Of a DNA stretch of 64,000 nt, positions 27,588-40,300 are shown piece by piece. The stretch lies in NCBI GenBank assembly GCA_025964775.1, contig JAOPYE010000037.1, positions 62,001-126,000 on the forward strand, given 5' to 3'. Position 1 is the stretch's first letter, and each line of letters opens with the position of its first letter. The position numbers and the translations under genes are program-made. The DNA is from Marmoricola sp. Lineage in GTDB: Bacteria > Actinomycetota > Actinomycetes > Propionibacteriales > Nocardioidaceae. Below the pieces are notes generated by a model. That model did no database searches. It saw nothing but the letters and a program-made list of their open reading frames with translations, and was not told where the DNA came from.

Positions 27588-27952
27588 GCTGCCCCTCCCC
27601 CGGCCAGGTATCTACATCGCCTGCCCTGTGCGCATCGTACGGCTGCGGAATCAGCCCGTCTCCCATCCCGGCGGTCGGTGGTTCAGCGCGGCGCTCCGGC
27701 GATACGTAGCCGGGCACGGTCTGTGTGCGGCTCGTTGGCCCGTGCGTGGCAGAGCGTCGTCTCACAACCCGTCGCGGGCGTGCCATCTGCGAATCTTGTT
27801 TCGGACACGGATTTTGAGACACGCCATCGTCGGGATGGACTGTCTTGGGCGTGAATGTGTTCGAAACCGGCGGTTTGTGGACGCCTGGGATCGTCGAAGA
27901 TCCGGACACGCAAGCCTGATGACGCATGGCTCTTTGATCGCGTCGATAACGG
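27588..27952. other. Gene-free stretch of 365 nt
   Basis: No supported gene between the Mce-associated pair and the TetR gene. It holds one palindromic repeat copy (27859-27882) and the promoter of the gene starting at 27587. Confidence 0.6.
27859..27882. repeat. Palindromic boundary repeat, copy 1
   Basis: Core AAACCG-G-CGGTTT, a perfect 6-bp inverted repeat, within a divergent copy of the family whose consensus is GTCGCACAACC then GTCCGGTTSTGNGAC. Lies 3' of the TetR gene. Confidence 0.5.
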
Positions 27953-28561
27953 TCAGCAGGTGTTGTCGAGTGCTTGCACGGCGTTGAGGACCGTGCGCAC
28001 GAACCATGCCTCCCAGTCCTCGGGGGTCCAGCCGCGCTCAGCGAGTTTGAACCACATTGCTCGCGAGCCGAGGGCCCAGACTTCATCGACGAGTGCGGCC
28101 GGGGGGTCGGCGCCCAGAACCAGTCGGCAAGCGTTGACGAACTCACCGTGCCGACGGTGCTCCATGTGGGTCCGGGCCTGGGCTGCCTCGGGGGTAGAGA
28201 CTCCGGCGTCGTCAAGGACCTGCTGGATGGCGGCCGATCGCTGATACGCGCTTCGCAGCCAACGTCCAGCGGTGGCAACTCGTTGAGCTAGCGCGCCTGT
28301 GCCCATCGCCTGGTAGTCGGGACGGTCCCGGACTGGTATCTCGGACAATGATGAGTCGATGCAGGCGATCAACAGGTCAAGCTTGGTGTCGAAATGGAGA
28401 TACACGGTGGGGCGAGCCAGACCCGCCGCTGCCGCGACCTGCGACATCGTCGTCATGGTCCAGCCTTGCCTGATGAACAGTCCCTGGGCCGCGCTGATGA
28501 GCCGATCACGATTCTGCTTGGCTGCTTCGGCACGCACAGACGAGTCATACCTACGAGCCAT
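27953..28561 (-). CDS. TetR-family regulator
   Basis: 202 residues. N-terminal helix-turn-helix DRLISAAQGLFIRQGWTMTTMSQVAAAAGLARPTVYLHFDTKLDLL; the ligand domain is not recognised. ATG at 28561 gives MARRYDSS; an ATG at 28573 adds four residues. Divergent from a hydrolase gene with a perfect palindrome between them, the usual layout for a repressor that controls itself and its neighbour. Confidence 0.85.
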   Translation of the reverse strand: MARRYDSSVRAEAAKQNRDRLISAAQGLFIRQGWTMTTMSQVAAAAGLARPTVYLHFDTKLDLLIACIDSSLSEIPVRDRPDYQAMGTGALAQRVATAGRWLRSAYQRSAAIQQVLDDAGVSTPEAAQARTHMEHRRHGEFVNACRLVLGADPPAALVDEVWALGSRAMWFKLAERGWTPEDWEAWFVRTVLNAVQALDNTC

Positions 28562-28584
28562 GTGATCCAGCATAGCCTTTTCAC

Positions 28585-28599
28585 TGTACTACGAGTACA
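28585..28599. promoter_or_regulatory. Probable TetR operator, perfect palindrome
   Basis: TGTACT-ACG-AGTACA, perfect 6-bp arms, centred between the TetR gene start and the hydrolase ATG at 28605. Its end is 5 nt from the hydrolase start, so binding would block transcription of a short or absent leader. Confidence 0.7.
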
Positions 28600-28604
28600 T
28601 TGAA

Positions 28605-29435
28605 ATGATGCGAATCAGAACTGAGCTCGGCGAGCTAGCCGCACGGGTGGTCCCGGGGCCGCCGCAGGTTGCTGTCCTGTGGCACAGCATGTTCACCGAT
28701 TCACACAGCTGGGATCGGCTGCTGGACCAGCTTCGCGAGCAACGCACTCTGGTGCTGGTCGACGGGTGGTCCTTCGGTGCCAGCGAAGATCTCGACCACG
28801 TTGTGCCTGACTTCAATGACGCCTGCGTGCGAGCGGCCGCCGCTGTCATCGCACAGGTCCAAGACGAGCTCGCGGCCGGCGCCGTCGACTGGTTGGGCAG
28901 CGCCTGGGGCGGCCATGTGGGACTCCAGCTGGCCGCGACTCGGCCAGAGCTGGTCCGCAGCCTGATAACGATCAGCACGCCGGTCCAGGCACCGAGTGCC
29001 TCCATGCGGCGCCAGGTCAGGCTGCTGCTTCCGGTGTACCGGATCATCGGGATGCGTGGCCCCGTACGTCACGGCCTGCTTGACGGAATGCTCACCGATC
29101 TCACCAGGCGCACCGACCCAGAGGCCGTCGACGCGTTAGTTGCTCCCATGTCCAGAGCCAATCGGCCGGCGATCACGCGGACCGTCCACTCCGGCATCCT
29201 GACCAGGAAGGACCTGGCATGGGCCGCCGCGCGAGTCACCTGCCCAACCCTGATGATTGCCACCGACGATCGGGGTGAATGGAGCCCCGCCGAATGCGCA
29301 CAGACCACGGCTTCGATGAAGGATGCAAGCTCAGCCGTTCTCACCAGATCACGAGCCCTGCCGTCCCTTGAATGTCCCTTCGAGGCAGCTACCTTGATCA
29401 CTGATTTCTGGACCAAGACCGCAGCCGCTACCTAG
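28605..29435 (+). CDS. Alpha/beta hydrolase, TetR-linked
   Basis: 276 residues. Oxyanion region VLWHSMFTDSHSWDRLLDQL, an elbow-like segment WLGSAWGGHVGLQLAATRPELV in which GSAWGG occupies the nucleophile position, and late TLMIATDDRGEWSP. The Ser to Ala-Trp context at the elbow is unusual (G-S-A-W-G-G), so the nucleophile is not certain. No ribosome site before the ATG; it may be leaderless. Ends in a hairpin at 29503-29523. Confidence 0.75.
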   Translation: MMRIRTELGELAARVVPGPPQVAVLWHSMFTDSHSWDRLLDQLREQRTLVLVDGWSFGASEDLDHVVPDFNDACVRAAAAVIAQVQDELAAGAVDWLGSAWGGHVGLQLAATRPELVRSLITISTPVQAPSASMRRQVRLLLPVYRIIGMRGPVRHGLLDGMLTDLTRRTDPEAVDALVAPMSRANRPAITRTVHSGILTRKDLAWAAARVTCPTLMIATDDRGEWSPAECAQTTASMKDASSAVLTRSRALPSLECPFEAATLITDFWTKTAAAT

Positions 29436-29477
29436 GGGCTTCTGCCTGAGAGCCTCATCACGGCGCTGCACCCGAGC

Positions 29478-29504
29478 GTCTCTCAAACCTCCGGTTGTGA
29501 CGTC
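29478..29504. repeat. Palindromic boundary repeat, copy 2
   Basis: GTCTCTCAAACCTCC followed by GGTTGTGACGTC. Lies 42 nt after the hydrolase stop and just before the terminator hairpin. Confidence 0.6.
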
Positions 29505-29523
29505 TGGCAGCTCTGCTGCCAGA
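29503..29523 (+). terminator. Hairpin after the hydrolase gene
   Basis: TCTGGCAG-CTCTG-CTGCCAGA, perfect 8-bp stem with a 5-nt loop. No U-tract, as is common in actinobacteria. Confidence 0.5.
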
Positions 29524-29578
29524 TCCCGCCGCTTGTGAAACGTCGCCCGGTTCTGGCTGTGAGGACTACGGTTCCGCA

Positions 29579-30091
29579 ATGGACACGACGGAGCGCACCT
29601 TGTACCCATCTAGGAAGAAATGGGCCCTCATGTTCTCGGGGTCGGTGACCTTCGTAATTGGTGGTGTGCTCATGGCGGTCACCTCCACGTCCGCCGCCGA
29701 CGTGCGAAACGGCTGGCTTTGCGTTGCGTTCTTTGGCCTTTGCGCCTTCGCGTTCGGCGTCTTTCTCATCCCCGGGTCTGCCTACTTGCACCTCTCCAGC
29801 GATGGCTATGACGTGCGATCGTTTTTCTGGACGCGCACTGAGACGTGGGATCACATCGTTGGCTTTGTTGCCGTGAACTTGACTGGCACAACGCGCCTTG
29901 TCGGTGTGATGTATGCGGAGAACTACTCGCCGCGCGGGGCTTTCAAGTTGGGCATGCGGCTGGGACGCCGATTCGCAGGCGTTGAAAGCTATCTGCCAGA
30001 CACATACGGAATGCCGGCCCCTGACCTCGCCGAGCTGATGAACGAATATCGCGAGCGACATGAGCGCGCCAGGTCCAACCGAGAGGATTGA
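29579..30091 (+). CDS. Small membrane protein with PH-like domain (hypothetical)
   Basis: 170 residues. Two membrane segments (about 16-36 and 46-66), then a soluble domain YLHLSSDGYDVRSFFWTRTETWDHIVGF resembling bacterial PH-like (bPH) domains. Function unknown. Single-gene unit bounded on both sides by palindromic repeat copies. Confidence 0.6.
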   Translation: MDTTERTLYPSRKKWALMFSGSVTFVIGGVLMAVTSTSAADVRNGWLCVAFFGLCAFAFGVFLIPGSAYLHLSSDGYDVRSFFWTRTETWDHIVGFVAVNLTGTTRLVGVMYAENYSPRGAFKLGMRLGRRFAGVESYLPDTYGMPAPDLAELMNEYRERHERARSNRED

Positions 30092-30097
30092 GGCACC

Positions 30098-30122
30098 GTC
30101 TCAGAACCCTCGGTTTCAGAAC
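30098..30122. repeat. Palindromic boundary repeat, copy 3
   Basis: GTCTCAGAACCCTC then GGTTTCAGAAC, between the 3' ends of the convergent genes ending at 30091 and 30128. Confidence 0.6.
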
Positions 30123-30127
30123 ACGAT

Positions 30128-30370
30128 TCAACTAGCGCTGCGGCGTTGGATTCGTACCCGTTGTCGGATCAGTTCGAGAGCGACGCCCAAGTTCAATCCT
30201 CCGGCGACGCCTGCGCCTACAAGCCACAGAGCATCACCGCGTCCGTCCCACTCGCTCCGGTACCTGGTTGCCATAAGCACGCCCAACGTTAGACAGACCA
30301 AAGCGCTAAACAGCACAGACCCGATTGACACCCAGGACAAGCGGGACGGAATCTGCTCTGAGACGTCCAT
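30128..30370 (-). CDS. Small two-segment membrane protein (hypothetical)
   Basis: 80 residues from the ATG at 30370. Two hydrophobic segments (about 13-33 and 45-65) and a basic C-terminus RQRVRIQRRSAS. Not recognised. Convergent with the gene ending at 30091; a repeat copy lies on each side. Confidence 0.5.
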   Translation of the reverse strand: MDVSEQIPSRLSWVSIGSVLFSALVCLTLGVLMATRYRSEWDGRGDALWLVGAGVAGGLNLGVALELIRQRVRIQRRSAS

Positions 30371-30405
30371 GCCCGAAAGGTACACGTCTCCGAGGCTGCG
30401 GCGGG

Positions 30406-30430
30406 GTCGCACAACCGTCCGGTTTCGGAG
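30406..30430. repeat. Palindromic boundary repeat, copy 4
   Basis: GTCGCACAACCGTCCGG then TTTCGGAG, close to consensus. Lies in the divergent gap between the gene starting at 30370 and the one starting at 30520. The preceding CGAGGCTGCGGCGGG resembles the flank of copy 6. Confidence 0.7.
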
Positions 30431-30519
30431 GCACCGATCAGCAGCACGAGCGAGCGTCGCGCCGCCGAATGCTTGGCCGCCGTGATGGCTCTCGTCCCGA
30501 GGAACGGCATGCTGACCCT

Positions 30520-31071
30520 GTGGACCTATTGGCAGCTGCTGCACTCACGTTTGAGAGGGTGGTCGTCGCCGTGCCCGCAGACGCGTGGGACAACGACACG
30601 CCCTGCGGCATTTCGGTGCGTGAGGTCATCGATCACGTGGTCGCAGGCAATCTCTTCGGTGCGATGTTGCTGACCGGAGTGCCGCTGGCAATTGCGCGGC
30701 CCGTACTTGAGGGAGATCACCTTGGTGCGGAGCCAGTTCAAGCCGTAGTGGCCTCCTGCGCGCGCCAGAACGCGGCGTTTGCAGCTACTGGCCCGGCGTT
30801 CCTGGTGCCTCACCCGAGCGGCGACCTCTCGGTCCAGACGTTCCTGCGCTTTCGAGTCGGCGACCTTGCTGTCCATGCTTGGGACGTGGCCCGTGGTGCT
30901 GGTCTCGACGAGACGCTTCCGCCGCCCTTGGTCAGCGGTCTGTGGGAAATGGTGGCGCCTCACCTCGACGACATGCGCGCGATGGGCACGTTCGGAGAAG
31001 GCGCGAGCCAAGACCTTCCTAGGGACACTCCACTTCAGGCACGGCTGCTCGATGCCTTCGGACGATCGTGA
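30520..31071 (+). CDS. TIGR03086/DinB-like metal-binding protein
   Basis: 183 residues from the GTG at 30520. Features of the mycothiol-dependent DinB/TIGR03086 family: helix PADAWDNDTPCG, the metal-ligand helix VREVIDHVVAGNLF, and FRVGDLAVHAWDVARG. Family members are putative mycothiol- or metal-dependent hydrolases or transferases. The start is uncertain, because GAGGAA lies rather far upstream and longer frames lack similarity. Single gene in the repeat-bounded region. Confidence 0.7.
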   Translation: MDLLAAAALTFERVVVAVPADAWDNDTPCGISVREVIDHVVAGNLFGAMLLTGVPLAIARPVLEGDHLGAEPVQAVVASCARQNAAFAATGPAFLVPHPSGDLSVQTFLRFRVGDLAVHAWDVARGAGLDETLPPPLVSGLWEMVAPHLDDMRAMGTFGEGASQDLPRDTPLQARLLDAFGRS

Positions 31072-31204
31072 CCGCGATGTGACCGCGGGCATCAGGGTGA
31101 CGGGCCATCAGGACGGATTGCGCACTCATCGGCTCGAAAGAGCGTCCGTATTCCTCGATTTCCGAACTCGACGATCGAGGTCGACCGCGTGTCAGGATCG
31201 ACCC

Positions 31205-31417
31205 ATGAGCCGGCTCAACGGATACCCGTTCTGGTACTACCTCGTTGGCGTCTTCATCGTCTCCGCAACTGTCGGCCTCGGCTCCGCCTTCGCCCGCTCA
31301 ACAGGAGTCGATGGCTGGCTCGGCACGCTCATCTGGTGTGTGTCACTCGTAGTCGGGTTCGGCATTGCACGCCGGGTCAACGCCCGCCTCTTCAAGGCCG
31401 CCGCCGACCCTGACTGA
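31205..31417 (+). CDS. Small two-segment membrane protein (hypothetical)
   Basis: 70 residues: MSRLNGYPFWYYLVGVFIVS opens the first membrane segment, and GTLIWCVSLVVGFGIARRV forms the second, with a short charged tail. Function unknown. A repeat copy begins 7 nt after its stop. Confidence 0.5.
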   Translation: MSRLNGYPFWYYLVGVFIVSATVGLGSAFARSTGVDGWLGTLIWCVSLVVGFGIARRVNARLFKAAADPD

Positions 31418-31423
31418 AAATCA

Positions 31424-31448
31424 GTCGCACAATCGTCCGGTTGTTGGG
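31424..31448. repeat. Palindromic boundary repeat, copy 5
   Basis: GTCGCACAATCGTCCGG then TTGTTGGG, near consensus, between convergent genes ending at 31417 and 31512. Confidence 0.7.
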
Positions 31449-31511
31449 TGCGCTCGCGTGTTCGGCGGAGTGAAGCGCTCCCGAGGTGTGTCGGCCGAGA
31501 TGGGGGGCCGG

Positions 31512-31991
31512 TCAGGTTCGTGCCGCGATGGCGAGTCGTTGGAGGCCGGCCGGCCAACCGGTGGGGCTGCCGACTGCCTGAGCCATGCCCTGCCAGCCCT
31601 CGCCATGACGCTCGAGGTGACGGTGGACGAGGTCGACCCGGGTCTGGGTTTCGGAAACAGGCGTGAACGTGACGTCGACCTCGGAGCACTTGGAGAGATC
31701 GGTCTCGACCTCCCACTGGAGGCTGATGTCCCATGTGAAGGTGAACCGGACGGGCGGTGCATAGGCGAGGACACGTCCCCAGGTGCAGGTGGAGCCGTCT
31801 TTGGCGATGTCGGTGATGGTGCCGCCGACGTGCGGCTCGACCCGCATCGCGACGGTGTCGGGCAGGAGGTGATGGGTGGGGTCCCACCAGGTCTCCATGC
31901 GCTGGGTGAAGGTCTCGAAGGTGTGGGCGGCCGGAGCGGCGACTTCGATGCTCACGGCGAGGCTGTCAGTTTGGTTGGTTGTCTCGGTCAT
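31512..31991 (-). CDS. SRPBCC (AHSA1-like) domain protein
   Basis: 159 residues, a START/AHSA1-type ligand-binding fold: SIEVAAPAAHTFETFTQRMETWWDP, WGRVLAYAPPVRFTFTW and a C-terminal helix GWQGMAQAVGSPTGW. Such proteins are often paired with an ArsR regulator, as here: its ATG lies 26 nt inside the end of the ArsR gene. Ligand unknown. Confidence 0.82.
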   Translation of the reverse strand: MTETTNQTDSLAVSIEVAAPAAHTFETFTQRMETWWDPTHHLLPDTVAMRVEPHVGGTITDIAKDGSTCTWGRVLAYAPPVRFTFTWDISLQWEVETDLSKCSEVDVTFTPVSETQTRVDLVHRHLERHGEGWQGMAQAVGSPTGWPAGLQRLAIAART

Positions 31992-32295
31992 GGAACGTCT
32001 CCTCAGCTGCGGTTTTGAAGTTGGCGAGTGAGCGGCGCCAGAAAAGGTCGAGGTAGTCGCGCAGCATCGCTACGCCCTCAGGGTTGATGCTGTACACGCG
32101 GCGGGTGCCACGGGCCGTGTCATTGACCAACCCGGCTTGCTTGAGCACCTTGAGGTGCTGAGAGACGGCCGGCCTGCTCACGGGGAGTTCTGCGGCGAGT
32201 TCCCCGACGGATGTGGGGTGCGCAGCGATCCGTTCGAACACCTTGCGCCGTGTCGGATCGGCGAGTGCCGCGAACCCCGTTTGGTAAGTGATCAC
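31966..32295 (-). CDS. ArsR-family regulator
   Basis: 109 residues. ALADPTRRKVFERIAAHPTSVGELAAELPVSRPAVSQHLKVLKQAGLV is a standard ArsR winged helix; no metal-site cysteines are present. GTG start. Overlaps the SRPBCC gene. A palindromic operator-like sequence lies just upstream. Confidence 0.9.
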   Translation of the reverse strand: MITYQTGFAALADPTRRKVFERIAAHPTSVGELAAELPVSRPAVSQHLKVLKQAGLVNDTARGTRRVYSINPEGVAMLRDYLDLFWRRSLANFKTAAEETFHDRDNQPN

Positions 32296-32300
32296 GAACG

Positions 32301-32316
32301 GTAAGTTACTGCTTAC
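32301..32316. promoter_or_regulatory. Probable ArsR operator
   Basis: GTAAG-TTACTG-CTTAC, perfect 5-bp arms, immediately upstream of the ArsR start at 32295, in an AT-rich patch. Confidence 0.6.
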
Positions 32317-32360
32317 TTAAACGTGGGTCAAGGCTTGCTTTGCTCCCGAGGCGGCGGGGC

Positions 32361-32385
32361 GTCGCGCAACCGTCCGCTTGTGTGA
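32361..32385. repeat. Palindromic boundary repeat, copy 6
   Basis: GTCGCGCAACCGTCCGC then TTGTGTGA. Its left flank CGAGGCGGCGGGGC resembles the flank of copy 4. Confidence 0.7.
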
Positions 32386-32416
32386 ATCGCGCTCTGCGCT
32401 TGGGCCGGCCTCCGAT

Positions 32417-32793
32417 TCAGTCGGCCGTGTAGCTGGTCCAGGTCTGGCCGTCCCAATAACGCGATCGCGCGATTTCGTACGGATCTGGGTACCAGTTCGC
32501 GGCGGCACGTCCCACCCGGGCGCTCGCGCCCTGGGCGTCGCATTCGATCGTGAAGCGACCGTCGGCGGGCGTCGTAAAGACATGGTCGAGTGTCTCGGTA
32601 TCGGACGAAGTCACGTTCATTCCGGGGTCACGGATCGCGATGGCGCGACCCTTGGAGTCAGTCGCCGTGCAAGACTCGCTGTATCCGCTGTTGTCGGGGT
32701 CGTTGAAGTAGATGCCCCAGGTGAGATCCCCGGGGGCGTGTACCTCGTACGCGCTGCAAGACGGGATGCGAGAAGGGCGCGCTGCTGGTCGTC
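32417..32793 (-). pseudogene. 5'-truncated DUF2510 protein gene
   Basis: The open frame runs from a stop at 32792-32794 to a stop at 32417 and has no usable start until an ATG at 32620. The upstream part still reads like protein (SCSAYEVHAPGDLTWGIYFND, then ESCTATDSKGRAIAIRDPG). The C-terminus carries a DUF2510 motif (NWYPDP...RYWDGQTWTSY). The N-terminal part, probably with a membrane segment, appears lost. If the ATG at 32620 is used, a 67-residue protein results. Confidence 0.5.
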
Positions 32794-33116
32794 ATGAACG
32801 GCATCGTCCTACAACGAAGGAGCGCTTGGGCGTCGTTGCAAGACACACGCATCTCGGCAGGGGATTGCGCATCCGGGTCTGTCAGATCGCGTGCTGTCCG
32901 AAACCGTCCCGCTCTGAACCGGACGATTGCGATGCAGCGTGGAGACTTGCCGACGAGTAGTCGGGGACGTGCGAATCAACATGGGTTTGCTGTCAGCATG
33001 GGCGCGTGGACAAGGAGCGTTTCCAGCGGGAGAAGGCTGTGGACGCCTGCGCTTGGGCCGTGGTTGTTCCTGGCAGAGTTGGGAGCGTGCGAGTGCAATG
33101 CCGGTCCTCGGTTGCA
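32794..33116. other. Gene-free stretch of 323 nt
   Basis: No supported gene. Contains two overlapping palindromic repeat copies in opposite orientation at 32896-32935. Confidence 0.55.
32896..32935. repeat. Palindromic boundary repeats, copies 7 and 8 (head to head)
   Basis: Copy 7 is GTCCGAAACCGTCCCGCTCTG; copy 8 is the reverse orientation GCTCTGAACCGGACGATTGC, sharing GCTCTG with copy 7. Confidence 0.55.
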
Positions 33117-33497
33117 CTAGGCGGTTTCCGTGATGGAGAAGTTGTTGCCGTCCGGGTCGCGGAAGGCGAACATGGCGGGGGTCCCGGGCCAGCGGAGAAT
33201 CTCGTCAGTCTCGACTCCGGCGGCTAACAGTGCCACGTGGGCACCTTCAGCGTCATCGGTGGTGAATCGGATGCCGATAGCTCCGCGCGTGACCTCGGGT
33301 GTAGCGGGTTCGAGCGTGACGATGGCGTTGTCCCCGCCGGGTGCGAGTTCGATCCAGCGACCGCCTTGGGGGGTCGGATGGTCGCGAAGCAGCGTGAATC
33401 CGAGTACGTCGGTGTAGAAGTCCAGGGCGGCAGTCTGGTCGTTGACCGGAATGCTGACTGTGCGGACACCGGTGATGTGAGTCGCTGTGGGCTTCAT
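33117..33497 (-). CDS. VOC-family (glyoxalase-like) protein
   Basis: 126 residues, two beta-alpha-beta-beta-beta units: VRTVSIPVNDQTAALDFYTDVLGF, then GIRFTTDDAEGAHVALLAAGVE, ending AFRDPDGNNFSITE with the metal-ligand Glu position. GAAGGAGCGCCC precedes the ATG. Members include glyoxalases and antibiotic-binding proteins; substrate unknown. Single gene in the accessory region. Confidence 0.88.
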   Translation of the reverse strand: MKPTATHITGVRTVSIPVNDQTAALDFYTDVLGFTLLRDHPTPQGGRWIELAPGGDNAIVTLEPATPEVTRGAIGIRFTTDDAEGAHVALLAAGVETDEILRWPGTPAMFAFRDPDGNNFSITETA

Positions 33498-33597
33498 CGG
33501 GCGCTCCTTCGGTGTGTGGGTGCGCGCATCCTGTCGATCCGGCTGAGCTTGCTGAGGATGGTTTGTAACCTCCGGGAGGTGGTCGCGCCAAGGGAGG

Positions 33598-34359
33598 TCA
33601 TGGCGTGCTTCGGTACATCCGCGAGCCGGGAGTGGTCAGTTCTTGTCCCGTCTCGAGCCAGGTCTTCAGACCGGAGAGAATCATCGGCCAGCCGCCGTAC
33701 AGATGCGGGTCGGCGTCCTCGCGCAGCTGGTCGTGGGTGACAGTGAGTCGACACGAGTCGCCGACCGGCTCGATCTCCCAGGTCACCCGGCTCGTTTCCT
33801 GCGCGGCAATGTCGTCGTCCCACGCCGCTCGGTAGGACTGCACCAGCCGGTGAGGCGGGTCAACCTCGAGGTTCTCGCCCTCGATCAGGGATCGGTCCGC
33901 CCCGGGGTGCCCCACCTGATAGCTGGACCCCGCAGCCCAGGTCGAATCGACCTGCGCGCCAAACTGGTAGCGCGCCCTGACCTGCCGATCGGTGATCGCC
34001 TGCCAGAGGCGCTCGGGAGTCGTGCGGATGTAGATTTCGAATACCTTCTCCATGGTGGCCTCCAGGTCACGTTTGAGGTCGGCGAGGCCGGCGGCCCACG
34101 CTTCGGTGTACTTGCTGACCCAACGGTCGTGGACCAGTCGGATTGGGATCGGGTTGAGGAAGTGCAATTTCTCTCGACCACGACGGCGGGTGGACACCAG
34201 GCCGGCATCCTCCAACAGGCGCAGGTGCTTGGCCACGGCCACTCGGGTCATGTCGAATTGGACTGCTAGCGCGTTGAGCGTCTGACCGTCGCGGCTGAAC
34301 AGCTCATCGAGCAGCTCGCGGCGCGTCTTGTCGGACAACGCTTTGAAGACCAGGTCCAC
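33598..34359 (-). CDS. ArsR regulator fused to SRPBCC domain
   Basis: 253 residues. Residues 1-90 are an ArsR winged helix (DLVFKALSDKTRRELLDELFSRDGQTLNALAVQFDMTRVAVAKHLRLLE); residues 100-253 are an SRPBCC/AHSA1 domain (EIYIRTTPERLWQAITD, VTWEIEPVGDSCRLTVTHDQL). The GTG at 34359 matches the normal family start; the ATG at 34380 lies inside the operator palindrome. Regulator and ligand domain, separate genes at 31.5-32.3 kb, are one chain here. Confidence 0.88.
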   Translation of the reverse strand: MDLVFKALSDKTRRELLDELFSRDGQTLNALAVQFDMTRVAVAKHLRLLEDAGLVSTRRRGREKLHFLNPIPIRLVHDRWVSKYTEAWAAGLADLKRDLEATMEKVFEIYIRTTPERLWQAITDRQVRARYQFGAQVDSTWAAGSSYQVGHPGADRSLIEGENLEVDPPHRLVQSYRAAWDDDIAAQETSRVTWEIEPVGDSCRLTVTHDQLREDADPHLYGGWPMILSGLKTWLETGQELTTPGSRMYRSTP

Positions 34360-34370
34360 GGCACCACAAT

Positions 34371-34390
34371 AGGAAACCATTTGGTTTCCT
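34371..34390. promoter_or_regulatory. Operator of the ArsR-SRPBCC gene
   Basis: AGGAAACCA-TT-TGGTTTCCT, perfect 9-bp arms, 11 nt upstream of the GTG start. Typical size and position for autoregulation by an ArsR dimer. Confidence 0.75.
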
Positions 34391-34521
34391 GTCAAGGTGG
34401 GGGTGCGCACGCTGGACCTCAGGCCGTACCCGAGCTAGTCATCGAGGCCGGCGACCCCGTGCCCCGGGACGAACGCACCGACTTGCAGAGGCCCGACCAG
34501 TCTGGAAGTCGAATCGGGTGC

Positions 34522-34544
34522 GTCACACAACCCGGTTGCGATCC
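34522..34544. repeat. Palindromic boundary repeat, copy 9
   Basis: GTCACACAACCCGGTTGCGATC, with a 3-nt shorter centre than consensus. Lies 58 nt upstream of the CYTH gene. Confidence 0.6.
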
Positions 34545-34602
34545 GACGGCTCGCGGCACCCGTACGCACTCCTCGGGCATTCGAAAGGCCTAACCTCGGT
34601 TC

Positions 34603-35067
34603 GTGTCCATCTCGCTCAAGTACGCGGTCGTCGAGCGCGAGCGCCGATACCGGTTGGCTCGGCTCCCCGAAGGCATCGGAGCCACACACGAGATCAACGA
34701 TCGCTATCTCGTCGGGACCCGTCTGCGGCTGCGTGAAGTGACACAGAATGACGGCAGTGTTGTCCGCAAGCTCGGGCACAAGGTTCGCCTCACGCCGGGC
34801 CCAGCGGAAGTCGCTTGCACCAACCTCTACCTCAGTGATGATGAGTGGGGACTTCTCATCTCGCTTCCCGCCAAGTTGCTACACAAGAGGCGCCACATTG
34901 TGGAGCGCGATGGCCTACTCGTCGCCGTCGATGAACACGACGATGGCACTCTCATTGCGGAGATTGACGACCGTGATGAGCCATCCAGCTTCATTCCTGA
35001 TTGGCTTGAAGTCGTGGAGGACGTCAGCAGCGACGAACGCTGGACCGGGAGTCAGCTCGCGCGCTAG
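34603..35067 (+). CDS. CYTH-domain protein (triphosphate tunnel fold)
   Basis: 154 residues. VVERERRYRLARL, DRYLVGTRLRLREVTQNDGSVVRKLGHKVRL, NLYLSDDEWGLLISLPAKLLHKRRHIVERDG and VDEHDDGTLIAEIDD follow the CYTH pattern of alternating acidic and basic residues in the tunnel. Members hydrolyse tripolyphosphate or make cAMP from ATP. GTG start. Standalone gene between two repeat copies. Confidence 0.8.
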   Translation: MSISLKYAVVERERRYRLARLPEGIGATHEINDRYLVGTRLRLREVTQNDGSVVRKLGHKVRLTPGPAEVACTNLYLSDDEWGLLISLPAKLLHKRRHIVERDGLLVAVDEHDDGTLIAEIDDRDEPSSFIPDWLEVVEDVSSDERWTGSQLAR

Positions 35068-35098
35068 AGATGCGCGTACAGCGCCACCTGCGAGCCCT

Positions 35099-35122
35099 GT
35101 CCAGAACCGTCCGCCTGTGGGC
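35099..35122. repeat. Palindromic boundary repeat, copy 10
   Basis: GTCCAGAACCGTCCGCC then TGTGGGC. Lies between the CYTH gene and the cold-shock-like gene, 20 nt before the latter's ATG. Confidence 0.6.
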
Positions 35123-35141
35123 GGCCGACTACCCTCGTGCG

Positions 35142-35393
35142 ATGGTCAGCGCGAAAGTTCGACAGTGGCATGAGGATCTCGGCTGGGGTGTTCTCGACAG
35201 TCTGGAGACCGATGGAGGCTGCTGGGTGCATTTCTCCGTCATCGAGTCGCCAGTTCTGTCGTCGATCGATGGCGTCACAGTGTCCGAGTACAAGCCGCTA
35301 GAAGTTGGCGAGACTGTCGAGCTGGAGTTCGAAGCCGTTGGCCAGGACGGTTACGACTACCGCGCAACAACTGTCCGTCGGGCCGTGAAGTAG
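35142..35393 (+). CDS. Cold-shock-domain-like small protein
   Basis: 83 residues from the ATG at 35142. KVRQWHEDLGWGVLDSLETDGGCWVHFSVIES, then GETVELEFEAVGQDGYDYRATTVRR, has the spacing of a cold-shock domain, but the RNP1 aromatics are poorly kept. Possible single-strand nucleic acid binder. Single gene bounded by repeat copies. Confidence 0.6.
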   Translation: MVSAKVRQWHEDLGWGVLDSLETDGGCWVHFSVIESPVLSSIDGVTVSEYKPLEVGETVELEFEAVGQDGYDYRATTVRRAVK

Positions 35394-35424
35394 GCGGAAG
35401 AACCTTCTTTAGATCCCCGGAGGT

Positions 35425-35447
35425 GTCTCAGAACCCGGTTGTGGGAC
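35425..35447. repeat. Palindromic boundary repeat, copy 11
   Basis: GTCTCAGAACCCGG then TTGTGGGAC, 31 nt after the cold-shock-like gene. Ends GTC and GAC are themselves complementary. Confidence 0.65.
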
Positions 35448-35512
35448 CTGAGTCATTTTCGCCGCCCTACAAGGCGAGCGAATACGGAACGCCGATCGAG
35501 AGGACTGCGCAC

Positions 35513-35563
35513 ATGAAGATTGCCTTTGGTGCACTCGTGCTCGCGGTGCTCGCCGCCGGGTAG
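35513..35563 (+). pseudogene. Orphan signal-peptide fragment
   Basis: ATG followed by AFGALVLAVLAAG-type hydrophobic codons (16 residues, MKIAFGALVLAVLAAG) and a TAG stop. It reads like the start of a secreted or lipoprotein gene whose body is missing. It could be a chance frame. Confidence 0.35.
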
Positions 35564-35900
35564 GACAATCGGAAAGACGGTATGTGTGCGCGAGCACGTG
35601 CACGCTCTCGCCGGGGCCCCGTGTAGCCGACGCGGGGCGCGTGTCACTGCGGGAAGATCACGGCACTGTGTGCAAATCGTCGCGATCCACTGACGGTCGC
35701 GATCGACAACATTGACAATTTGGTGATTGCGAGCGTAGAACGACAACTGTCCGGACTGGCGACTCGCTTCAGCGTCTCGACCCGTTGGATGGGTTGCTTG
35801 GTGCTCGTCCGTCGAACGCTGGAGCAGGCCCCGCGCTGGAGAGAATCTCGGGTGCTGCAGGTTCACCATCGTCTAAGTCTCGGGACCAAGGAGACACACG
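35564..35900. other. Gene-free stretch of 337 nt
   Basis: No supported gene. It holds a weak repeat copy at 35741-35763 and the promoter region of the secreted protein gene at 35901. Confidence 0.55.
35741..35763. repeat. Palindromic boundary repeat, copy 12
   Basis: CGACAACTGTCCGGACTGGCGAC, a diverged copy. Confidence 0.45.
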
Positions 35901-36452
35901 ATGAGAAAGTCATCGACCCGGCTGGCCAGTCTGGCCGCCATAGTTGTTGCATTCTGCGGACCGGCCGCCCTCGCGCCAACTGCGTTCGCATCGTCATCGA
36001 GCGGGGCAACCCACGTCCAGGGCCATTGTGACCCGAGCAGCAACGTCTGCGGTTCCAACCCCGTGCTCCAGGGTCCGCCACCGCCCTTCGTGAACATCCC
36101 CGCCAACTGCCCCGGATTCATCTCCACCGACACCTGGACCCTCGCGTTCACGGGCGGGCACTCCGTGTTCCACGACACCAACAACAGCAACGGTGACTGG
36201 GGCGGATTCACCGCCGACGGGCAAGCTACCTTGACCACGTCCGACAACACGGTGCAGTACGCCGGTCACCTCACCGAATGGGGAGGCGGAGGCAACAACT
36301 CCGCATCTCAGAACGAATTCGGGTTCACGCTCACCTATCACGGCAGCGGAATCGCCGGCAACATCTCGATCCACGTGACCGGGCACTCGACCACCAACAA
36401 CGGCGGAACTCAGACGAACAACTTCCAGACCGCCACAGTGACCTGCTCCTAG
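35901..36452 (+). CDS. Secreted hypothetical protein
   Basis: 183 residues with a clear signal peptide (MRKSSTRLASLAAIVVAFCG, cleavage near residue 30 after AFA). The mature part is rich in Gly, Asn, Ser and Thr, with beta-strand patterns (GQATLTTSDNTVQYAGHLTEW, ISIHVTGHSTTNN) and four cysteines that could pair. GGAGACAC precedes the ATG. No family recognised. Followed by a strong hairpin. Confidence 0.65.
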   Translation: MRKSSTRLASLAAIVVAFCGPAALAPTAFASSSSGATHVQGHCDPSSNVCGSNPVLQGPPPPFVNIPANCPGFISTDTWTLAFTGGHSVFHDTNNSNGDWGGFTADGQATLTTSDNTVQYAGHLTEWGGGGNNSASQNEFGFTLTYHGSGIAGNISIHVTGHSTTNNGGTQTNNFQTATVTCS

Positions 36453-36496
36453 CCAAGTTGAGGACCACGAGCAAACCTCAAGTCGATTCTTGAGCT

Positions 36497-36523
36497 CCGG
36501 GATCGGACCTGATCCGATCCCGG
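36497..36523 (+). terminator. Hairpin after the secreted protein gene
   Basis: CCGGGATCGGA-CCTGA-TCCGATCCCGG: perfect 11-bp stem with a 5-nt loop, 45 nt after the stop at 36452. Confidence 0.7.
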
Positions 36524-36720
36524 GGTCGGCCAGACACAGGCCCGCCCGGATAGTCCGCTATCACCTTGCGCGTGCGACGATCAGGTCCCGGAGCGCACTC
36601 TCCTCGGCAGATCCGATTGTCCGAAACCCGTTTGCCAACGCGACCAGCTCAACAGACATGACTCAGCCTGTTGTCCGGCAACTTCTAGTGCGCGCGATTT
36701 TGGAGGTGCACACTGGGTTC

Positions 36721-36969
36721 ATGGCCGAAATCCACGCCCTCCCCGCGAGCGGAGACGTGTTCGTGGACGCCCGGGATCAGGGTCGGGCGATGCGGCTCTC
36801 GTGGCATCGTGGCGGTCAACTTGCAGTGCTGTCGATCTGGCGTGCCGGCACCTGCGTAGCCAGCTTCCAGCTCGCGCGGAACGATGTGCCTGGGTTCGTT
36901 GAGTCCCTCGTTCGCGCTCTCTCCGATGATCAGCCGGAGTGGACTACCCACCCGAGCCAAGCGTCCTGA
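36721..36969 (+). CDS. Small hypothetical protein
   Basis: 82 residues: MAEIHALPASGDVFVDARDQ, then RAMRLSWHRGGQLAVLSIWRAGTCVASFQLARNDVPGFVESLVRAL. A short alpha/beta protein; similar small proteins are common in actinobacteria but have no known role. GGAGGTG lies upstream of the ATG; an in-frame ATG at 36658 is an alternative. Its stop lies inside an inverted copy of the boundary repeat. Confidence 0.6.
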   Translation: MAEIHALPASGDVFVDARDQGRAMRLSWHRGGQLAVLSIWRAGTCVASFQLARNDVPGFVESLVRALSDDQPEWTTHPSQAS

Positions 36970-36987
36970 ACTGGCCAATTGTGCGAC
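36963..36987. repeat. Palindromic boundary repeat, copy 13 (inverted)
   Basis: On the minus strand GTCGCACAATTGG then CCAGTTCAGGAC. It overlaps the last codons of the gene ending at 36969. A still weaker half-copy (GTCCGAAACCCGTTTGCC) is at 36619-36636. Confidence 0.55.
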
Positions 36988-37145
36988 GGTCTCACTTGTC
37001 AGGCGCGGTGAGGCTCCGCCGTCGAATCGTCTCGGCATATTGGCTGGCCGCCCCGAACTAACGCAGCATCAGCCTCAGGTTTTCGGGTGTGCGCCTGCTG
37101 CCCTGAGACCGTGAAGTAATACCTACGGCAACGGGGAGTCTAGGG

Positions 37146-37394
37146 CTAAGACTTCTTCTGGCCGCTGGTGAGCCAGGCGCCGCCGAGGGCTACCAGGGCA
37201 ACAAGGACGGCTGCGATCCCGTGCTTGATGTGATGCTTCGTGTCACCGGCCGCGTGGCCCGGGAAGAACGAGGGCAGGTCCGCCGCCGACGTCGTGAAGT
37301 AGACGACTGCGACCACACCAATCAAGACCGCTACGACGACCATGGTCACGGTCACCCACACGGGAGCATTGCGCGTCGATCCTGCTTCGCTCAC
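37146..37394 (-). CDS. Small two-segment membrane protein (hypothetical)
   Basis: 82 residues from the GTG at 37394, chosen because GAGGAG lies 6 nt upstream. Two membrane segments (about 13-34 and 57-76) flank a short outer loop, DLPSFFPGHAAGDTKHHIKHG, rich in His. Function unknown. Confidence 0.6.
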   Translation of the reverse strand: MSEAGSTRNAPVWVTVTMVVVAVLIGVVAVVYFTTSAADLPSFFPGHAAGDTKHHIKHGIAAVLVALVALGGAWLTSGQKKS

Positions 37395-37509
37395 GAACAA
37401 CTCCTCGTCTAGAAACTTGCGGCAGCCGAGCATAACCGACACCAACGGCAGTCCCCCGCCGCGACGACCTCAAACGTCGCAAAGAATGCACGCTCTCTGC
37501 TGATCCGAT

Positions 37510-37535
37510 CGCTCCGAACCGTCCTGTTGCGAGCG
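37510..37535. repeat. Palindromic boundary repeat, copy 14
   Basis: CGCTCCGAACCGTCC then TGTTGCGAGCG; the ends CGCTC and GAGCG are complementary, so the whole 26 bp can fold. Lies 51 nt before the MFS start. Confidence 0.6.
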
Positions 37536-37586
37536 CTCAGGATTTATCGGTCGAGTTGATCCTTGCGACGAGGTAGCGTCCGCGCA

Positions 37587-38843
37587 GTGAGCCTCCGCGA
37601 CCATCTCTCGCCTTTGGAGGACACGAACTTCCGGAGGTTCTTCCTCGGCGAAGTCATCAACAACGCGGGCTCCTCCATGGCGGGTATCGCACTGTCGTTC
37701 GCGGTGCTCGCGATCAGCGACTCGGTCACGGCTCTCGGCTGGGTCGCTGCTGCCTGGACGGTGCCGATGGTCGCGTTCATGCTCATCGGTGGCGCCATCT
37801 CCGACAGGTTGCCCCGCACCCTTGTTCTGCGCGGCTGCAACCTCGTGCAAGGCATCGTCCAAGCGATCGCTGCAACGCTGGTCCTCACCCACCAGGCGCA
37901 GGTGTGGGAGCTCGTGGCGTTGCAGTTCGTCGGTGGGACCGTCTTCGCGGTCAGCTATCCGGCCTTCCATGGCATGGTGCCGATCCTCCTGCCGCAAGAC
38001 CAGCGGAAGTCCGCCTACCTTCTCCTGGGTCAATCACAAGGCATGCTCGCCATTGCTGGCCCAGCGATCGCCGGCGTGCTGGTCGCGACTGCCGGGGCTG
38101 GCTGGGGGTTGGGTGTCGATGCACTCACCTACCTCGTTGCGGCCGGATTCCTCAGCGCGGTCCGGCTGCCCGCCGGCGAGCGACCCGACCGGAGGCCGAG
38201 CGTGATCGGAGACTTCGCCGCAGGGTGGTCCTTCGTACGGGCGCTCGGTTGGGTGCTTCCGATCGCATCGTGCTCGTTGGTGTTCAACGCACTCAACAGC
38301 GGCTCGATCGGCGTCCTGGGCCCGGCGATCGCTCGAGGCACGATCGGCAGCGACGGCTGGGGCTTTGCTCGATCCGGCCAAGCGATCGGTCTCTTGGTGG
38401 CCGCGATCTTCCTCGCCAAGCTGGTGATCCGGCGCCCGCTGCGTGCCTGCGTCTTCGGTTTCACCCTCGGCGCCTTACCGATGCTGCTGCTCGGAACGTG
38501 GGTCAACACCGGCGCGCTCGCCGTGGCGTTCTTCGTCGCAGGCGTTGGCAGCGCGATCATCAACCTTGCCTGGAACCTGGTCGTCCAGGAGAAGGTCCGC
38601 GAGGACATGCTCTCCCGCGTGATGGCGATCGACGGCTTCTTCTCCTTCGTCGCGATGCCGATCGGTCAGGTCGCGGTCGGGCCGCTGTCCCACGCCTTCA
38701 GCGCGCGCGACGTCGAACTCGGCAGTGTCGCGGTCTGCGTCCTAGTCGGGCTCATCGGGGCCACACGACCGATCATCAGCAACCTTCGCCTTGACCCACC
38801 GCGTGAAACCGGAGATGACGAGGCAGGCGTAGCCCGGGCGTGA
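37587..38843 (+). CDS. MFS transporter
   Basis: 418 residues with about 12 membrane segments. N-terminal LEDTNFRRFFLGEVINNAGSSMAGIALSFAVLAI is typical of the enterobactin exporter-like MFS group (MFS_3), and GGAISDRLPRTLVLRG is the loop 2-3 motif. Probable drug or siderophore exporter. GTG at 37587 gives the family-like start. Standalone gene. Confidence 0.85.
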   Translation: MSLRDHLSPLEDTNFRRFFLGEVINNAGSSMAGIALSFAVLAISDSVTALGWVAAAWTVPMVAFMLIGGAISDRLPRTLVLRGCNLVQGIVQAIAATLVLTHQAQVWELVALQFVGGTVFAVSYPAFHGMVPILLPQDQRKSAYLLLGQSQGMLAIAGPAIAGVLVATAGAGWGLGVDALTYLVAAGFLSAVRLPAGERPDRRPSVIGDFAAGWSFVRALGWVLPIASCSLVFNALNSGSIGVLGPAIARGTIGSDGWGFARSGQAIGLLVAAIFLAKLVIRRPLRACVFGFTLGALPMLLLGTWVNTGALAVAFFVAGVGSAIINLAWNLVVQEKVREDMLSRVMAIDGFFSFVAMPIGQVAVGPLSHAFSARDVELGSVAVCVLVGLIGATRPIISNLRLDPPRETGDDEAGVARA

Positions 38844-39024
38844 CCTGCCAGAGGGCAATGCGCTGCAGTCAGTCGATCCTTCCGAAATGCCATTTCTGGA
38901 AGGAACCTGACAAGCCCGGCAGCTCCGGTACTCTCGCCGCAAGGACGCGCCGAACGAGCCCCCCACAGCCCTGCAGCCCGCGTTCCCGCAGCGGAGCATC
39001 AAGGTCCGCCCGTACAACGCGTGC

Positions 39025-39468
39025 ATGGCAAAGCGCATGGCAAAGCGAGCGAAGGTCCCTGAGGACGCGGTCGCGGTCGCGTTCACCTTCAACAACCTCT
39101 TCACGATGGTCGTGTTCGGGATTGTCGAGGACATCGCCAAGCTCATCCCCTCGGTCGGGGACCTCATCGAGATGGCGATCTCGTTGGTGAGCTTCTACTG
39201 GCATCGGGTCGTGCTCGTCACCGACAGACACGTCTACATCTATCGCGACCTGCCCTTCCACCGCCCCGGCGAGCAGCTCCACGTCTTCGAGCGAGGCCCG
39301 GGTCTGGTGACGATCGGCAGCCCGAAGACCGGGTGGTGGTCGAAGTTCATCCGCCGCGGTCAGCTCACGTTCAGCGACGGGACCGTCGTGTACCACGGCA
39401 TCCTGTGGATCAAGCGCGCCCGATACGTCGCTCAGGAGGGCAACATCCCCCCGAACTCGGCGGTCTAG
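39025..39468 (+). CDS. Hypothetical protein with PH-like features
   Basis: 147 residues. An N-terminal hydrophobic stretch (about 16-55), then HRVVLVTDRHVYIYRDLPFH and GPGLVTIGSPKTGWWSKFIRRGQLTFSDGTVVYHGI, a pattern like a small PH-type barrel. The frame stays open and protein-like upstream to 38911 without a normal start codon, so the true start is uncertain. Not recognised beyond that. Confidence 0.55.
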   Translation: MAKRMAKRAKVPEDAVAVAFTFNNLFTMVVFGIVEDIAKLIPSVGDLIEMAISLVSFYWHRVVLVTDRHVYIYRDLPFHRPGEQLHVFERGPGLVTIGSPKTGWWSKFIRRGQLTFSDGTVVYHGILWIKRARYVAQEGNIPPNSAV

Positions 39469-39497
39469 CCGACCGCTCATCGACAGATCCGGGCGTG

Positions 39498-39522
39498 ATC
39501 TCACAACCCCCCGGTTGTCGAC
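39498..39522. repeat. Palindromic boundary repeat, copy 15
   Basis: ATCTCACAACCCCCC then GGTTGTCGAC, 29 nt after the preceding stop. Confidence 0.65.
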
Positions 39523-39674
39523 AGGTCCCTTAGCACCTCTCGGGTACTCTTCCTAAGAACCCGAACGTTGGTGTCGATTGGCGGGTCAAGCCGCGGCGTC
39601 TTGGTCCGAGACGTCGTGGGGGCGGCTGTCGTCCTGTCAACAGAGTCGGTTGGAACTGGGAGTACTCGATCCGC

Positions 39675-40190
39675 ATGACCGGTCATCGCACACCGACCAG
39701 GATGAGGTCGAGCGACTTGGACCAACTGCGCCCCCGATTCGGGTACGGCGCCCTGCTCTGGGTTGCTCGGCGCATGAAAGTCCACACGCCGCAGCTCCAA
39801 CGCGTGCCCAGGTGGATCACCTGGTTCGCCCTGTCCGTTGCCTTCGGTTTCCTCGGATGGGTCATCTACCTGTCCATCGGCATCACGTCGATCGTGACGA
39901 CCCACCACTACGACATCGCTTGGTTGGGGTTCGACGGCCTCGAATTGTCGATGGTTGGCGTCGTTGCGGTCGCTGCGTGGAAACACCATCCGTCGACCAC
40001 CATCTTCACCGGAATCTGTGCGGTCATGTTCGCCGTCGATGCTTGGTTCGACGTGTGGACCAGCCCACGCGGAAGTGTTGTGAGCGCAGCCGTTCTCGCG
40101 GTCTGCCTGGAGCTTCCCTTGGTCGCGGTCTTTACATTCGCGACGATCCATGGAGAGCGAGTCAAGAACAAGGCGATGGTTGTCGCTTAG
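39675..40190 (+). CDS. Membrane protein (hypothetical)
   Basis: 171 residues with four membrane segments from about residue 45 onward (RVPRWITWFALSVAFGFLGW, LELSMVGVVAVAAW, TIFTGICAVMFAVDAWF, VSAAVLAVCLELPLVAVFTF). ATG at 39675 has GGGAG upstream; an ATG at 39774 would give 138 residues and is an equally plausible start. No family recognised. Confidence 0.6.
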   Translation: MTGHRTPTRMRSSDLDQLRPRFGYGALLWVARRMKVHTPQLQRVPRWITWFALSVAFGFLGWVIYLSIGITSIVTTHHYDIAWLGFDGLELSMVGVVAVAAWKHHPSTTIFTGICAVMFAVDAWFDVWTSPRGSVVSAAVLAVCLELPLVAVFTFATIHGERVKNKAMVVA

Positions 40191-40274
40191 GCATCGGCGA
40201 TGCCGGACACGCTGTTCTCGGCAGATAACGACGCCCGCCGCCGCTCACCTACAGATTAGGCAGGCTCGCGCGTT

Positions 40275-40299
40275 GTCGCACAACTGTCCAGTTCTGCGC
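40275..40299. repeat. Palindromic boundary repeat, copy 16
   Basis: GTCGCACAACTGTCCAG then TTCTGCGC. It directly abuts a 5'-truncated reading frame. Confidence 0.65.
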
Positions 40300-40300
40300 A

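Follow-up and report, generated by a model that had tools for sequence, protein, structure and literature searches.

The window analysed here, a 64,000-nt stretch of a Marmoricola sp. genome (G000:C40:62001-126000, where G000 is the host genome: 3.9 Mb, 53 contigs, completeness 94%), carries a row of short palindromic repeats that separate small genes. We consider it probable that these repeats are subsite I crossover sites of a small serine resolvase and that the region is an integron-like row of gene cassettes lined up behind a resolvase recognition site (res). More tentatively, it may represent a second, independently evolved kind of integron, based on a serine resolvase, a res head and cassettes ended by bare subsites I, that captures, excises and shuffles single foreign genes in several arrays on the chromosome and passes from species to species. 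What defines an integron is a tyrosine integrase that works on attC sites in folded, single-stranded form, and a resolvase normally resolves cointegrates or dimers. If our proposal is true, integron architecture can arise with unrelated chemistry and a cointegrate or dimer resolver can turn gene collector, while a site of 26 bp whose specificity lies in a 2-bp centre would be a possible tool for ordered DNA assembly.

The repeat is a 26-bp site in which two inverted 12-bp half-sites flank a 2-bp centre that is usually TC (consensus KKYTCASAACCSTCCGGTTGYGRGCR, built from 46 copies in stretches of G000, including three head sites, see below). When the window was scanned for paired inverted half-sites at a gap of 2, ignoring the centre and using a half-site matrix derived from these same arrays, 14 places were found, all at 27858-40275, versus 0 in each of 10 shuffles of the window. 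The original prediction of about 16 palindrome copies at gene boundaries, with none in the window flanks, is borne out: the repeat is real, 13 of the 16 copies were recovered (34522, 35425 and 35741 were missed) and the copies lie mostly between open reading frames (ORFs), for example 7, 11, 30 and 31 nt past the stops at 30091, 31413, 39468 and 35067. In 16 stretches of arrays from three genomes, 71 pairs were found at a gap of 2, compared to 0-2 each for gaps of 0, 1, 3, 4, 5, 6 and 8, and the centre, ignored in the search, was TC/GA in 57 of the 71 pairs, GC in 12 and CC in 2. Conservation does not extend into the flanks of the site (0.24 bits per column at most), the conserved block being 26 bp only, and accessory half-sites show no excess around 40 array sites (0.17 and 0.25 per flank versus 0.28 and 0.30 in 700 controls). 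The further suggestion that structure matters more than sequence fared poorly, as an imposed hairpin pairs 66.8% of cells versus 64.0% in column shuffles (66.8% is reached by 7 of 500 shuffles), two-sided changes affect 45 cells versus 34.5 in shuffles (45 is reached by 2 of 500) and the hairpin pairs 4/23, 6/21 and 7/20 are broken in at least half of the 46 copies. The covariation excess is small, and the palindromic shape is explained by the two inverted recombinase half-sites. Rfam at gathering thresholds gave no match in the window.

Within a given stretch the sites nearly all face the same way. Among sites with an asymmetric centre, 55 of 57 point the way that most such sites of their stretch do (in four cases the stretch supplies only one such site to this count). 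On contig C12, 19 of 20 sites share the asymmetric centre and one direction, the remaining site being GC, the six sites of C50 all have the same asymmetric centre and direction, and the window array has nine TC centres and one GA. In the host stretches that were read there are 47 strong copies, spread over nine contigs and belonging to five arrays or more; with the matrix score set at 19 or higher, the counts in the stretches read are 46 sites on nine contigs for G000 (plus C12:7364), 14 for the genome G004 and 5 for G101. A scan of G000 with a first model, in which 150 of 1401 candidates were scored, likewise placed clusters on C40, C12, C50, C6 and C9 as well as at the ends of contigs, other matches being isolated and weak, so that the copies are concentrated on few contigs and contig ends and not evenly spread. 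Since C12 and C35 share identical 127-bp contig ends (L013:18434-18560 and L031:9059-9185), they are probably a single array. Judging from these identical ends, the assembly seems to be broken by arrays.

A longer element of ~125 bp, the head, stands at the left end of those arrays in which this end could be read. Eight heads align, on C40, C35, C6, C9 and C23 of G000 and on C141, C159 and C67 of G004, the left ends of C50, C21, C34 and G004:C34 being truncated or outside the DNA read. In G101, G016 and G012, three further genomes of the genus, the head element sits immediately upstream of a gene for a small serine resolvase and, by sequence, constitutes a res of ~120 bp with three subsites. 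Given this homology to DNA upstream of resolvase genes, we read the head as a whole res site and each array repeat as a copy of its crossover subsite I standing alone. Published res sites, as described in PMC12217951, are ~120 bp long, lie upstream of the gene and comprise three subsites of 12-bp inverted binding sites, with cleavage at the central 2 bp of subsite I, and PMC7157771 places res site III next to tnpR.

The G101 resolvase gene (L102, L114), if its ATG is taken as the start, begins ~10 nt from the head element and is transcribed away from it. The protein has nine matches, itself included, in 8 of 24 genomes of the genus, and the two closest others, in G016 (77%) and G012 (70%), also have the element directly upstream, whereas no element was seen upstream of resolvases at 39-47% (G009, G103 and G002; six upstream regions inspected). 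The protein matches Pfam PF00239 (3e-44) and HTH_7 PF02796 (6e-13), its nearest solved chains are a DNA invertase and the gamma-delta/Tn3 resolvases, and its motifs YARVST and LDRLGRS align to the solved invertase. A plasmid resolvase of Kineococcus radiotolerans (pKRAD02) is 58% identical to the genus resolvase, and its upstream DNA carries a site I (GTCTCAGAACCG-CT-CGGTTGCGAGAC, at -133) that is near-identical to the repeat, along with GTCGCACAACCC at -72. The linked recombinase that the original prediction proposed to look for exists, in relatives, as a small serine resolvase, but a small resolvase was not found in G000 itself. As for the RAYT family, none occurs among the 20 window ORFs scanned with Pfam, a search confined to those ORFs.

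Cassettes are shared between arrays, with several of the breaks falling inside sites. Window positions 27857-29464 match C50 at 86% over 1614 bp, the match beginning at a site in both with unrelated DNA leftward, and on the right this block stops before reaching a site, by 14 nt in the window and by 104 nt in C50. C50 and C21 match through position 16 of their sites and then diverge, C50 and C6 have the DNA right of a site in common (75% over 720 bp), and the site at 29478 shares only its right side with C12:15491. Between the window and G004:C141 the chromosomal flank and head are alike (85% over 380 bp) as far as the site, beyond which the DNA differs, and homology of the window to G004:C34 ends inside the site at 36962. 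Altogether, 6 of 18 shared-block ends lie within a site ±3 nt versus ~4% expected, with a probability (7e-5) that is indicative only, because the ends were hand-listed, from array comparisons and the window/G004:C34 alignment, and items were omitted: matches between heads, the overlap of contigs C12 and C35, a match of G004:C159 to itself, ends past the last site, tiny gapped-alignment pieces and the blocks C12/G004:C34, C6/G101:C143, C21/G101:C143 and G004:C34/G101:C52. The gene flanking the array on the left is present in all 24 genus genomes searched, and none of the window array genes lies beside it in 15 fetched loci (7.9-19.9 kb); the right-flank gene has a close relative (95%) only in G004 and relatives at 41-46% in 17 others. 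A separate block, window 32509-32745, matches L012:1791-2027 (87% over 237 bp) in opposite directions relative to the sites, as if inverted.

The cargo has a foreign, cassette-like look. Scored with a codon model of the host, 17 array genes reach 0.01 per codon versus 0.36 for 12 flank genes (p=2e-5). The long ORFs used to train the model came from the window and from four further host stretches and included the flank genes, which gives the flank score some advantage. The GC content of the array is 0.634, versus 0.68 in both flanks. Single-ORF intervals (ORFs of at least 55 aa) make up 13 of 18 inter-site intervals longer than 100 bp on C12 and 5 of 7 on C50, counts that are soft because long chance ORFs are common at this GC, and 17 of 20 C12/C50 proteins have no Pfam family at 1e-4. 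Genes run both ways relative to the sites. The earlier idea that the repeats are insertion points of a gene-capture process is thus supported, with one direction per array, mostly single foreign-looking ORFs between sites, and genes behind the shared flank and head that differ between species.

In the mechanism that we propose, each cassette would end in one 26-bp site, all of them behind the complete res at 27759-27883, and a resolvase supplied in trans would cut the 2-bp centres of two sites and swap them. With sites in direct repeat, the cassette would be excised as a circle, and the reverse reaction would insert a cassette or exchange cassettes between arrays, while the head res may serve as recombination partner or as topological accessory. 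We infer that the resolvase carries out the exchanges, that circles are the intermediates and that capture is still possible. Since no small resolvase is encoded in the window genome, the arrays there are probably inactive unless a mobile element brings one in.

Several observations weigh against this proposal. No relative of the small resolvase was detected in G000 or G004 at E≤1e-8, and no recognisable array lies within the ~20 kb read at each resolvase-bearing res site, where the only weak site matches nearby are L114:12542 and L112:10674. The centres of these three res sites are AA, TC and AA, and nine clear heads without a resolvase have GC versus TC in cassette sites, so that exchange between head and cassette would leave a mismatch and should be inefficient; despite this mismatch, different cassettes do adjoin heads. 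In Tn3, according to PMC12217951, two lone subsites I failed to recombine. Among the shared-block ends, 12 of 18 lie away from sites, and the notion that all differences between the window and G004:C34 are site-bounded had to be abandoned on detailed alignment, since the large one, a G004 deletion of window 37629-39533, is not. The strong site C12:7364 faces against its array. When five resolvase genes from four actinobacterial plasmids were checked, the same upstream site was found in one, pKRAD02; R. antarcticus gave single upstream half-sites, the others gave little, and a short-site BLAST on plasmids returned nothing convincing except pKRAD02 itself. Finally, arrays are rare, as within the limited sensitivity of the searches only G000, G004 and G101 stand out in the samples: a 22-base pattern run on 341 family genomes gave 16 matches in G000, 9 in G004, 5 in G101 and 0-3 in each other genome (up to 3 for the reversed control), and a model termed R2, run on 293 order genomes, gave at least 25 matches in G000, close to the maximum of 26 candidates that could be scored, and 1-3 in 49 others, with G004 and G101 not among the matches listed. 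A perfect-palindrome pattern run on 396 phylum genomes was too strict, hitting a single place even in G000 and one each in two others.

Some of these points would suit an account in which the sites are relics of res subsite I that mark old junctions, the arrays having been built by homologous recombination at short repeats, by integrated plasmids and by deletions. The lack of a detected small resolvase in G000 and G004, the block ends off sites and the differing head and cassette centres all favour it, but it sits badly with a near-uniform direction and a conserved asymmetric centre across dozens of diverged copies, with a conserved block of exactly 26 bp and with several in-site breaks that have unrelated flanks, and we regard it as unlikely. 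We think it very improbable that the repeats are a REP- or MITE-like element spread by a transposase: they are indeed short imperfect palindromes between genes, as the original prediction had noted in proposing a REP-like element, but they are clustered, arranged head-to-tail in one direction, absent from the flanks and tied to a head that is a res site.

A classical integron with a tyrosine integrase (IntI) and unusually short attC sites is hardly credible, for all that its array layout and single-ORF cassettes resemble what we see. As in integrons and integrase-less cassette arrays, mostly single-gene cassettes each end in a co-directed site behind a head (55 of 57 asymmetric centres, heads aligned), the cargo is mostly without a Pfam family and the arrays lack a recombinase gene. 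Unlike integrons, the system involves a small serine resolvase (in relatives), to whose genes the head belongs, has 26-bp sites with a 2-bp centre and genes in both directions, and forms several arrays per genome. The attC sites have R and L boxes, are folded and are longer than about 55 bp, compared to a conserved block of 26 bp with flanks below 0.25 bits per column here. The best match in G000 to the integron-type integrase model TIGR02249 scores 41.9 bits against a cut-off of 265, the genome being 94% complete and this absence hence no proof. Tyrosine integrases retrieved with TIGR02249 and PF00589 were of Xer and phage type, and array sites are absent around a XerC gene that adjoins dprA on C42 (first 12 kb). 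That the repeats are transcription terminators or regulator binding sites is scarcely tenable, since, despite several copies 7-31 nt past stop codons and the ability of resolvases to regulate from res (PMC7157771), the asymmetric centre and direction are kept whichever way the gene runs, the covariation excess is only small and the copies are confined to arrays.

The resolvase-based cassette row that we favour shares with Tn3-type resolvase/res systems, and with the pKRAD02 type, the res layout upstream of the resolvase gene and, for pKRAD02, a nearly matching site I. Such transposon and plasmid systems normally have one res per element, whereas in these arrays a single res is followed by many lone subsites I that lack II and III, and a resolvase gene is missing beside most heads. 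The nearest ideas to these arrays are exchange at res between transposons and Xer pdif modules. Resolvase-mediated exchange at res is reportedly the subject of Kholodii's 2001 'The shuffling function of resolvases'. In the exchange of toxin-antitoxin (TA) modules at res in Tn3 elements, described in PMC7157771, breaks also occur at res site I and adjacent DNA is swapped, but these are single swaps between whole elements and not ordered cassette arrays. The pdif modules of Acinetobacter likewise consist of genes flanked by short sites with the recombinase encoded elsewhere, but use XerC/XerD tyrosine recombinases and dif-like sites and have no res head. An array of resolvase sites with gene cassettes was not found in the open-licence PMC literature, judged from search listings.

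Table 1. Sites, head element and cassette genes of the array (window positions).
Feature	Position	Strand	Remarks
Head element, read as complete res site	27759..27883	+	Aligned with 8 heads and DNA upstream of three resolvase genes
Head subsite III	about 27759-27798		Limits are our reading
Head subsite II	about 27799-27820		Limits are our reading
Crossover subsite I of head	27858..27883	+	Centre GC; end part of the longer head 27759-27883, not an ordinary copy
Cassette 1 gene a, TetR_N protein	27953..28573	-	PF00440; cassette common with C50 at 86%
Cassette 1 gene b, alpha/beta hydrolase	28605..29435	+	PF00561; C50 copy also Abhydrolase_1
Cassette site (subsite I type)	29478..29503	+	Centre TC; right side common with C12:15491
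Weak extra match	29516		14th hit of half-site scan
Cassette gene	29579..30091	+	No Pfam family
Cassette site	30098..30123	+	Centre TC
Cassette site	30406..30431	+	Centre TC
Cassette gene, MDMPI_N domain	30472..31071	+	Start codon uncertain; PF11716 in ORF 30325-31071
Cassette site	31424..31449	+	Centre TC
Cassette gene	31512..31991	-	No Pfam family
Cassette gene, ArsR-type regulator	31966..32295	-	PF12840/PF01022
Cassette site	32361..32386	+	Centre TC
Cassette site	32895..32920	+	Centre TC; overlaps site 32910..32935
Opposite-direction site	32910..32935	-	GA on + strand; overlaps site 32895..32920
Cassette gene, glyoxalase-fold protein	33117..33497	-	PF00903
Cassette gene, HTH plus AHSA1 domains	33598..34410	-	PF08327/PF12840
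Shortened copy	34522..34544	+	Centre 3 nt shorter; missed by 26-bp model
Cassette gene	34603..35067	+	No Pfam family
Cassette site	35098..35123	+	Centre TC
Shortened copy	35425..35447	+	Centre 3 nt shorter; missed by 26-bp model
Copy of the original prediction	35741		Good right arm absent; missed by half-site scan
Cassette gene	35901..36452	+	No Pfam family
Site with palindromic centre GC	36962..36987	.	G004:C34 homology ends inside site
Cassette site	37510..37535	+	Centre TC
Cassette gene, MFS transporter	37563..38843	+	PF07690
Cassette gene	39025..39468	+	No Pfam family
Cassette site	39498..39523	+	Centre CC
Cassette gene	39675..40190	+	No Pfam family
Final cassette site of array	40275..40300	+	Centre TC

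Other recombinase genes occur near some of these elements. The sole PF00239 match in G000, a large serine recombinase of 466 aa, is encoded next to the C9 array, where it neighbours the head together with a REP_ORF2-G2P protein (PF23343; L026:6179-8568, G000:C9:69178-71567), an integrated plasmid-like element adjoining the array. Near the res sites of G012 and G101, too, large serine recombinases are encoded, 5-8 kb away. On C6, at 92.0 kb (L032:6020-6120), 29 nt resembling the head end are found 0.25 kb from a partial tyrosine integrase gene (C6:92.3k). Two close plasmid relatives of the resolvase (L119 and L120) adjoin genes for a Mu-transposase-C protein and an AAA ATPase, a gene set that we take to be Tn402/Tn5053-like.

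A head-motif scan of GTDB contigs gave 8 exact matches, 5 of them in the Marmoricola metagenome-assembled genomes (MAGs) RYN_197 and RYN_191; the two in Paracoccus and Halobacillus have no site nearby and were judged to be chance. One further match is in a MAG named Glaciihabitans RYN_104, of another family, whose contig L097 (JAODMY010000117.1) carries the head element and sites, reflecting either cross-family transfer or misbinning.

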